A stretch of 32,868 nt of DNA from the NCBI GenBank assembly GCA_015486155.1, contig WFSF01000010.1:1-32868 (forward strand), given 5' to 3'. Below are positions 22,532 through 25,973 of the stretch, piece by piece; position 1 is the stretch's first letter, and every line of letters starts with the position of its first letter. The position numbers and the translations under genes were made by a program. The stretch is from Armatimonadota bacterium. Its GTDB lineage: Bacteria > Armatimonadota > Hebobacteria > Hebobacterales > Hebobacteraceae. The notes under the pieces were generated by a model. That model had not been told where the DNA came from, did not search any database, and was given only the letters and a program-made list of their open reading frames with translations.

Positions 22532-23332
22532 TTACTCGTCTCTCTGCACGGCCGACTCCCCAGCGAGCGATTCCGTGTACGCAAAGGCCTGCTCGACGGA
22601 GGCGCCGCTTCCCTCGATGGCGATCACCACCGCGCCCTCCGATCCGGCCACTCCGCCGGAGGCCACATGCCAGGCCTCCACGCCGAACAGGATCTCCAGG
22701 GCCTCCAGTTCAGTGACCACCTCCGCGCCGGTCAACACCGCCATGCCGCAGGATACGCCGTCCACCCGGTCCATTCTGTCTGCTCCGAGTTGACGGGCCG
22801 CCTCGATCACGTCCGGCACCAGTTTTTCCAGGCCCACGGGCGCGATCAGATGCGCTCCGCGGGCCGCCAGGATACCGTAGAACTGCCCTACGGTGCCGCC
22901 CACCGGACTGCCGAGCAACACCCCTACATTGCCCTCCGGGTCCAGGGCATTGGCTCCCTTGATGAAGACATCGCCCTTCTGAAACTCCTGGAGCAGGTCG
23001 ATCCAGGCGCCCGTAAAGGGTTTGCCGCGCTTCAGCGCCACGAGTTCGGGACGGGCCGCGGAATCCGTTACATCCAGGCGCCCCCCGGCGATCACTCCCG
23101 CCGCATAGCGCCACTTCGGCATCGGCTTCCCGATGATTTCCTCCGCCACAAAGGCGTTGGTGATCCCGTTTCCGATGATCAGCCTGCCGTTGCGAAGCGC
23201 CTCCTGCACCACCGGCATCTGCGCCACAGCGCGCGCGATGAGCCGCTTCGATTCGGATGGATTCAGCACCACCATCGCCCTCATCCGCGCCGACTTGTCC
23301 TTGCGGATGGAGTTCTCCCCCATTTCCGCCAT
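22532..23332 (-). CDS. Conserved-looking hypothetical protein (266 aa), possibly Rossmann-like/NagB-RpiA-like fold
   Basis: Long ORF with good composition; Gly-rich motifs 'NGRLIIGNGITNAFVAEEIIG', 'FIKGANALDPEGNVGVLLGSPVGGTVGQFYG', 'HVASGGVAGSEGAVVIAIEG'. Family not recognised. Confidence 0.7.
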   Translation of the reverse strand: MAEMGENSIRKDKSARMRAMVVLNPSESKRLIARAVAQMPVVQEALRNGRLIIGNGITNAFVAEEIIGKPMPKWRYAAGVIAGGRLDVTDSAARPELVALKRGKPFTGAWIDLLQEFQKGDVFIKGANALDPEGNVGVLLGSPVGGTVGQFYGILAARGAHLIAPVGLEKLVPDVIEAARQLGADRMDRVDGVSCGMAVLTGAEVVTELEALEILFGVEAWHVASGGVAGSEGAVVIAIEGSGASVEQAFAYTESLAGESAVQRDE

Positions 23333-23613
23333 GCGCCACCTCCCAAACGGTCAGGCGGTATGCCGCCGGCCTGCCAGAACGAATGGAGCGACCGCCGCTG
23401 CGGCCGCTCCCCGACTCACTCTACGGAGGGACTTCCCTCACCTTCGCGAGAGGAGAGGCCTCCGCATTACAGTCATACTGGCCAGAACCCATCCCGCCCG
23501 GCAGCTCGCTGCGTCCCGCGGCCGTCAAATGCCGCTTGCGCAACGCCGGAGCCGCTGTGACTGATCGGCATATCTCCGCTATCGGAGGGGATTACTGCCG
23601 TTCGCTCGTAGCG

Positions 23614-23850
23614 CTACTGTCCCCCTCCGCGGCTGCCGCGCGCATTCCGCTGTTGTCCTCCTCCGCCGCCTCGCCGGCCTCCCCGACGGGTGGGCTGGAT
23701 GACCTTACCGGTCTTGGGGTCAATACGACCAACGCCCGGCCTGATGGCAAGAGTCTTGTGGCTGGTGGCCTTGATCAGGAAGAACACCACCACCAACACC
23801 ACCACCACGATCAACAAGATGGCTACGGTTGGACTCACAGACTTCCGCAT
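23614..23850 (-). CDS. Small single-TM protein with Arg/Gly-rich tail (78 aa)
   Basis: Near-perfect Shine-Dalgarno AAAGGAGGTGA 7 nt upstream of the ATG; TM 'VAILLIVVVVLVVVFFLI' then 'RRGGRRGGGGGQQRNARGSRGGGQ'; promoter on the same strand upstream. Confidence 0.78.
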   Translation of the reverse strand: MRKSVSPTVAILLIVVVVLVVVFFLIKATSHKTLAIRPGVGRIDPKTGKVIQPTRRGGRRGGGGGQQRNARGSRGGGQ

Positions 23851-24152
23851 TCGCTGTCACCTCCTTTCACAAGCAGCAACGCATGGCCCGCGTGAGACGA
23901 GGACGGTCCGAGCCGCTCCCGCCCTCTTCCTGAGAACGTGACCGGGCCAACGTCATGGTGGCAGGTCGTGTTCCCGCGTTATCCCGTCGCCACGTCGGGA
24001 GCCGTGCTGCGATCACTGGTATCATCATGCCGCGATCACACTGGTTGCGATCGTAGCTGTTCGCTGCTAAGGCAGGCTCTCCCTGCGTCCGGACTCTGCC
24101 GCGCGTGCATTCTCCGCCAGAGCCCGCCGCCTATCCTCCTCCGCGTGCAGTT
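23851..24152 (-). ncRNA. Candidate structured ~300-nt 5' leader of the RGG membrane protein gene
   Basis: No convincing ORF; lies between promoter 24159-24187 and the SD/ATG at 23850; several hairpins visible such as TCCCG-tcgccacgt-CGGGA and GCAGG-ctctc-CCTGC. Confidence 0.4.
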
Positions 24153-24158
24153 CGGCGG

Positions 24159-24187
24159 AATATACCATGCCGCTTGCACCCTGTCAA
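24159..24187 (-). promoter_or_regulatory. Near-consensus sigma70 promoter driving the minus strand
   Basis: On the minus strand: TTGACA (24187-24182), exactly 17-bp spacer, TATATT (24164-24159). Confidence 0.8.
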
Positions 24188-24272
24188 CAATCTCGCGGTC
24201 CCTCTTGGCCATTTGACGCTCCGAGAGGCGCAGGAGTTCCCCTGCGGACAAGGAAATCTTGAGTGGAAAGCC

Positions 24273-25973
24273 ATGGGAAAGTCACGCGCGCTGCTTCGTC
24301 TCTTATCTCTGTGCCTGTATATGACCGCGACGGTCGGAGCGCTGGGGATGTTGTCTCGGTCCGTCGGAGCGACGGTGGCGGGGGAATATCTGGCAGAGGC
24401 CGCGCGCGCCACCGGAACCATCGCCCTCCCCGGCGATCAGTCGGCCGCGCGCCGCGAGGTGGCGATCACACAGGTTAAATTGGACCCGCGCGCGGCGCTG
24501 GAGATGGTGGCGACCATCGCCCGCCCCACCGACGCCGCCCGCGCCCTGGCCGCGGCGGCTCTGGGCATTGCGGAATTCGATCTCCCGAAATCCCAGGACG
24601 CCCTGTCCACGGCGGGCAGACTGTTGACCCGCATCTCCAACTCCACCTGGCGGGAGACGGAACAGCGCCTGTTGCTGGCCGAGGTCTCCGCCCTGGGGGA
24701 AAAGGCCCTCGCGGCGGCCCCCGAGCTGGCCAAAGAGGACGCGGAGAGCTGCATCCTGCTCGCCGCCGCCCGCCGCGGCGATCCCGCAGCGCTCGACCTG
24801 TTGGACAAGTGGTCCGTCTCCAGCGAAGTGGCCGACCGCACATGGTCCATGTCGGCGGTTTCGCTCGCCGCGACTAAGCCGGAGCGCGCGCTGGAGCTCG
24901 CCGGTAAAATCACCTCCACCGACATCCTCGCCCATACCCTCTGGATGATCGCGGAACAGAGACCGCCTTTCGAGGCGATGGCCCTCGCCGGCCGCGTCTC
25001 GGACCCCGTTGCCCGCTCCGCCATCCTCTCCAGCGCGGCCAGGCGTTCCGTCGCCTCCGACCCGGAGGCGGCATTGGCGGCCGCCCGGACGGTTCCGGTC
25101 TCCCCGAATTCCGCCCTCGCGGAGGTGGCCGTCGCTCTCGGCTCCCGGGAGGTGAAGCGCGCGCTGGCCGTGGTGAAGGAATTGCCCCCCTCCGCGCGGT
25201 CCTGGGCGACGGGACGCATCGCCGCGGGCCTGGCCCGGACCGACGCCGAGGCTGCGGAGGCGCTGCTTGCAGAGACCCCGGTTTCCGGTGACGCATACCG
25301 CCTCGCCCTGGTTCACATGGCGGCCCGCGATCCCGACCGGGCGGCCCGGCTGGCGCGGTCGCTTCCGGAGGGTGAAGACCGGGAGTCCACACTCGCCGCG
25401 GTGGCGGAGGCGGTGGCGGAGAGGCGGCCCGGCCTGGCCGTCGACCTGGTCTGGGAACTCACATCGCCCCGGTGGCGGTCTCGCGGCGCGGCGGCGGTGG
25501 CCAGAAAGATCGCGGCCGCGGACAAAGACGGAGCCCTGAGCCTGCTTGGGCTGGCGGAGACGAAGGAGACGGCCCAGCGGGCACGTGCGGACATCGGAGC
25601 GCAGATCGCCTCCAGGGACCCGGAGGATGGAAGGAAACTGCTGGCCTCTCTGCCCGCCAGCTCCTACCGGCGGGACAGGGCGTTTGAAGCGGCGGAAGCG
25701 CTGTTGCAGGCGGGGAGCAAACTGGACGAAGCGATGCCCCTGGCCGCGCTCGCGGACAAGCCCGACATGTCCCTCCGCTGGCTGTTGCCGAACCTCGTCT
25801 GGAGCCAGCGGGAGAGTCCGCTTCACGCCGCGGAGCGCATCTCCGATCCCTATCTGCGCGCCCTCGCGCTGGTCGACGCCGCCCGGAGGATGCTCGGCGT
25901 CGAGCCGAGGTGTCGGCCGGATCCCGCGCGGCTGGCCATGGTCCGCCCCATCGTGGAATGGGAGGGACGCTGA
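24273..25973 (+). CDS. Secreted/membrane-anchored alpha-helical repeat (HEAT/TPR-like) protein
   Basis: N-terminal hydrophobic segment 'LLRLLSLCLYMTATVGALGML', then about ten 29-32-aa units like 'DPEAALAAARTVPVSPNSALAEVAVALGS' and 'DPDRAARLARSLPEGEDRESTLAAVAEAVAER'. Start moved from 24105 to ATG 24273. Confidence 0.8.
   Translation: MGKSRALLRLLSLCLYMTATVGALGMLSRSVGATVAGEYLAEAARATGTIALPGDQSAARREVAITQVKLDPRAALEMVATIARPTDAARALAAAALGIAEFDLPKSQDALSTAGRLLTRISNSTWRETEQRLLLAEVSALGEKALAAAPELAKEDAESCILLAAARRGDPAALDLLDKWSVSSEVADRTWSMSAVSLAATKPERALELAGKITSTDILAHTLWMIAEQRPPFEAMALAGRVSDPVARSAILSSAARRSVASDPEAALAAARTVPVSPNSALAEVAVALGSREVKRALAVVKELPPSARSWATGRIAAGLARTDAEAAEALLAETPVSGDAYRLALVHMAARDPDRAARLARSLPEGEDRESTLAAVAEAVAERRPGLAVDLVWELTSPRWRSRGAAAVARKIAAADKDGALSLLGLAETKETAQRARADIGAQIASRDPEDGRKLLASLPASSYRRDRAFEAAEALLQAGSKLDEAMPLAALADKPDMSLRWLLPNLVWSQRESPLHAAERISDPYLRALALVDAARRMLGVEPRCRPDPARLAMVRPIVEWEGR

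Follow-up and report, generated by a model that had tools for sequence, protein, structure and literature searches.

A conserved promoter, a genus-specific 5' leader and a terminator-like 3' hairpin at a small membrane-protein gene of Hebobacteraceae (Armatimonadota)

The window, i.e. the whole stretch of DNA that was analysed, comprised 32,868 nucleotides of contig WFSF01000010.1 from an uncultured sediment bacterium of the Armatimonadota (family Hebobacteraceae). The locus of interest lies on its minus strand and was compared with other genomes of the family and phylum, above all with the sister species G001 (contig JALGTT010000009.1, labelled Candidatus Hebobacteria). The class Candidatus Hebobacteria belongs to the Armatimonadota and has been described from marine sediments that are anoxic (PMC10290634). 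The following features were annotated.

24153-24187, minus strand: sigma-70-type promoter, TTGACA-17-(TGG)TATATT with GC-rich discriminator CCGCCG (consensus match and family conservation)
23851-24152, minus strand: 5' leader of about 302 nt, no conserved upstream ORF (start site deduced from the -10 hexamer)
24069-24089, minus strand: hairpin P1, GGACGCAGGGAGAGCCTGCCTT region (comparison with the sister species)
24029-24057, minus strand: hairpin P2, GCTACGATCGCAACCAGTGTGATCGCGGC (comparison with the sister species)
24009-24045, plus strand: repeat GCGATCACTGGT (24009-24020) / GCGATCACACTGGT (24032-24045), only the GATCGC core being kept in the sister species
23848-23867, minus strand: extended Shine-Dalgarno (SD) sequence AAAGGAGGTGACA, 9-nt spacing, ATG (comparison of family orthologues)
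23614-23850, minus strand: gene for a 78-aa protein, membrane segment MRKSVSPTVAILLIVVVVLVVVFFLIK followed by an RG/RGG-rich tail (ORF and translation)
23385-23410, minus strand: hairpin GGAGCGGCCGC-AGCG-GCGGTCGCTCC behind the ORF (two-species structure scan and family conservation)
L147, about 1500, minus strand: second promoter of the same kind before rpsU (bS21) (looser pattern; rpsU named from sequence)

The small protein is built from an N-terminus of the form M-R/K-K-x-V-S-P, a single membrane segment and an RG-rich tail, and was assigned to no family in Pfam or NCBIfam. Short membrane proteins starting with M-K/R-K-x-VSP (L022-L043) were found across Armatimonadota, with up to eight matches per genome (genus g14), and their N-terminus is reminiscent of archaeal pilin N-termini. 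The start codon at 23850 is preceded by AAAGGAGGTGACAGCGA, and the extended SD can pair with most of the 16S anti-SD. Six family orthologues share the SD stretch AARGGAGGTGACAKC, whereas G003, the seventh, carries AAAGGAGGAAG; the exact string AAAGGAGGTGACA plus ATG was found a single time in this genome. A gene at 22532-23332 (minus strand) encodes a 266-aa protein with relatives in Bacillota, Chloroflexota, Bipolaricaulota and methanogenic archaea, which matched nothing in Pfam and NCBIfam.

The preliminary description had proposed a near-perfect promoter at this site, and the comparison bore this out. TTGACA starts at 24187 and is followed by a 17-nt spacer and by TATATT ending at 24159 (minus strand), with 11 of 12 hexamer positions matching the consensus and a TG ahead of the -10; the spacing is within the 16-18 nt of sigma-70 promoters, and the hexamers are conserved at the gene. 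It was the sole promoter-like site in the surrounding 3 kb, where 0.2 were expected. The pattern TTGACA-N17-TATANTNCGCCG was present as a single copy per genome in seven of eight family genomes, each time upstream of the small-protein orthologue; the eighth genome, 55% complete, holds a paralogue of the small gene only and no orthologue. Elsewhere in the phylum, five matches were obtained among 283 other genomes, giving 12 genomes with the pattern in all. Judged by this conservation, this is a genuine promoter, and it is the promoter of the small membrane-protein gene.

Stringently controlled sigma-70 promoters of the rRNA and ribosomal-protein type carry GC-rich discriminators. The promoter described here resembles them in its near-consensus hexamers and the CCGCCG discriminator, and a similar promoter stands before rpsU (bS21) in the same genome; it differs from them in that its gene is not ribosomal and in that a ppGpp response is suggested by the discriminator only. 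The discriminator suggests growth-rate (ppGpp-type) control. With the looser pattern TTGACA-N17-18-TATAATCCGCC, the rpsU promoter was the one further site in this genome, located about 140 nt before that gene, with a putative link to such control. Upstream of the -35 hexamer, a block at 24188-24250 (minus strand; GGGGAACTCCT..CTCGGAGCGTCAAATGGCCAAG) is almost unchanged in the sister species and may represent either a regulator site or a part of the gene that diverges at 24273.

Assuming a transcription start 6-7 nt past the -10 hexamer (near 24152), the leader extends over about 302 nt to the ATG at 23850. The earlier description of about 300 nt without a convincing ORF held up: ORFs are present in the leader (e.g. 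53 aa at 24028-23867), and none of them has a start with an SD or a reading frame shared with the sister species. A leader-peptide attenuator was rejected, as the leader shows no SD-bearing start, no kept frame and no terminator. Leader lengths deduced in the same way in seven family genomes were 302, 286, 256, 216, 208, 117 and 116 nt. Outside the genus, the leaders aligned poorly except at both ends; the exception was the pair of sister species G006 and G007, whose leaders show a difference of about 100 nt close to the start site. The G007 leader (L020) contains about 100 nt of hairpin-rich sequence adjoining the start site that is absent from G006.

DNA identity to G001 was 73% across promoter, leader and gene start. 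It was highest at the SD and gene start (0.92-0.96) and at the promoter (0.84), lower in the middle of the leader (about 0.70) and at 24050-24149 (about 0.50); the worst-conserved spacer windows (23450-23699) reached 0.40-0.52. Copies of the leader were not found elsewhere in this genome. DNA similarity to other families of the phylum was weak and corresponded to the hydrophobic coding repeat or to other short stretches at either query end. As far as these alignments go, the leader is genus-specific and shows no family-wide conservation as an RNA.

A search of the whole window with the 4227 families of Rfam 15 gave no match above the gathering threshold. At E-values up to 10, one spurious microRNA match was obtained (16 bits versus a cut-off of 82), and the six orthologous loci gave no Rfam match either. 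The initial statement that the leader belongs to no known RNA class was upheld at strict and lax thresholds. A literature search on RNA regulators in Armatimonadetes returned nothing. The leader is placed like riboswitches of the Rfam classes, in the 5' leader of a single gene; it differs from them in matching no Rfam family and in showing no conservation beyond the genus. A riboswitch is generally recognised by an aptamer conserved across species with covariation, whereas conservation of this leader was seen in the genus only. The riboswitch reading found no support, because only promoter and SD are constant across the family while leader length and sequence change, and a covariance model of the leader hairpins (R1, see below) found nothing convincing outside the genus.

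Folding of the single leader sequence gave a minimum free energy of -122.8 kcal/mol, corresponding to a z-score of -0.17 versus dinucleotide shuffles; the range across six species was -0.2 to -1.9. The several hairpins noted at the outset are present, as they would be in any sequence of 65% GC. The plus-strand repeat reported together with them was recovered with both copies in place. One of these copies makes up a hairpin's 3' arm, a point absent from the first description, and P2 includes part of the repeat.

Comparative support within the leader was limited to the stretch 24089-24029. P1 keeps seven pairs versus G001 with two double compensatory changes (A-U/G-C and G-C/A-U), and P2 keeps ten pairs with three one-sided changes of the G-U type and a diverged loop. 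Taken together, 17 of 17 pairs are kept, with two double and five one-sided changes and diverged loops, in a comparison of two sequences only. Windows of 80 nt near this stretch, aligned with G001, scored z about -4. On the gene strand the P1/P2 signal reached z -5.1 (0 of 1000 shuffles), versus -1.6 on the other strand, in a test that rests on two sequences and on a region chosen after the signal was seen; this asymmetry argues for an RNA rather than a DNA dyad. Significant covariation is out of reach because there are only two sequences, and in one control 134 of 500 shuffles did as well. When the whole 15-kb alignment was scanned blind, z -4 was attained by 0.5% of windows; the leader windows reached at most -2.9 before realignment. 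Applied to 291 genomes of the phylum, model R1 recovered only the two input loci; its other matches (E 0.016-0.05 per genome) included no credible new member. These data are suggestive of a structured P1/P2 element kept between only two species of the genus. Of the undescribed cis-regulatory RNA first proposed, the two-hairpin element with compensatory changes between two species is partly supported, and the riboswitch reading is not.

The strongest window of the 15-kb two-species scan (23353-23432, z -5.4) lies behind the gene and contains the 3' hairpin, which is nearly identical in G001 despite the poorly conserved spacer around it. Six family genomes are sequenced across this spacer, and in all of them the arms GGAGCGGCCG/CGGCCGCTCC occupy the same position, between the small gene and its neighbour. 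The loops differ among the six genomes, and the stem is intact in each of them (60 of 60 pair cells, no double changes). Tails such as ATTCGTTC (in the present genome), CTTTCAG and TGATCGA represent weak U tracts. Like intrinsic terminators, the hairpin stands between two genes and has a short loop on a GC-rich stem that is 10 or more pairs long; unlike them, its stem sequence is conserved across genera and its T tract is weak. The hairpin is terminator-like without a good U tract; the conservation of its arm sequence would also be compatible with a DNA-binding site. On the predicted structures, this hairpin and not the leader is the family-wide structured element of the locus.

The locus is probably the transcription unit of one small membrane protein, for which high expression is predicted. 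The account that we favour, and hold to be fairly likely, combines a strong dedicated promoter with a passive, genus-specific 5' UTR that tunes stability or translation and with a terminator-like 3' hairpin. Transcription from the near-consensus sigma-70 promoter with its extended -10 and GC-rich discriminator would start near 24152, and the 302-nt untranslated leader would lead to the SD and to translation of the 78-aa RG-tailed protein. P1 and P2 would most likely act passively, either by shielding the 5' portion of the transcript or by stopping upstream sequence from pairing with the SD. The unit would terminate at, or be trimmed back to, the strong GC hairpin at 23410-23385.

Conservation at the gene is shown for its promoter, its SD and the 3' hairpin, and the leader is not conserved beyond the genus; start site, expression level, hairpin role and termination are deduced from these sequence comparisons. 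Since the leader is swapped freely among genera while the promoter and SD on either side of it stay fixed, no particular aptamer can underlie its general role. Conservation of its structure between only two close relatives likewise points to strong expression of the small protein rather than to a new riboswitch. Strongly expressed bacterial mRNAs can have long 5' UTRs with stabilising 5' hairpins, as in E. coli ompA. The present locus is similar in having a long hairpin-bearing leader before a strong SD and a membrane-protein gene; it differs in that there is no homology, its hairpins are backed by two species and the stability role is a proposal. Counting against the passive leader, the mid-leader identity exceeds that of the worst spacer windows, which leaves room for active regulation, and the lack of a proper U tract at the 3' hairpin counts against the unit as drawn.

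Active regulation would mean a genus-specific cis-regulatory RNA that recognises a protein or a signal through P1/P2 and the GATCGC repeats and switches access to the SD in response; the protein could perhaps be the gene's own RG-tailed product, a ribosomal protein or an RNA-binding protein. This is possible and rather unlikely. It would agree with the compensatory changes in P1 and the wobble-compatible changes in P2, seen on the gene strand only, and with the sequence near the SD being kept in several genera. The SD can pair in part with sequence just upstream (UUGCUGCUUGUGAAAGGAGGUGACAGCG) and is about 40% paired in the predicted ensemble, where a local hairpin covers SD and start codon. 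That hairpin, however, is G-U-rich and is different or absent in G003, G006 and G007, the P1/P2 element is confined to two species of the genus, and neither an alternative terminator nor a clear switch structure was found.

A leader that is functionless spacer, left behind when sequence between the unchanging promoter and SD was rearranged, and conserved in two species mostly by shared ancestry, is doubtful and somewhat less possible than genus-limited active cis-regulation. Replacement or resizing of the leader between genera and a fold no better than that of shuffled sequences fit such a spacer, but the conserved P1/P2 pairs do not, nor does the higher identity of the mid-leader relative to spacer 23450-23699. 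Autoregulation, in which the RG-tailed membrane protein would bind RNA and act on its own mRNA at P1/P2 or at the 3' hairpin, is conceivable but improbable. The independent small RNA considered in the preliminary description, although compatible with the strong promoter and the long non-coding stretch, is very improbable and found no support, because the leader has no terminator-like site and a conserved SD and ORF follow directly; leader sequence and length moreover vary in the family.

For this locus, the result speaks clearly against a new riboswitch class, and attention moves to the hairpin behind the gene, which is conserved wherever the family genomes show that region. Were the RG-tailed protein to control its own mRNA, it would be an autoregulatory RNA-binding protein that is anchored in the membrane and restricted to this Armatimonadota family. 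Under the favoured account of strong, dedicated expression, a small uncharacterised membrane protein would be among the genes best equipped for expression in this genome, because its promoter pattern is unique to the gene in seven of eight family genomes and its SD string is unique in the genome.
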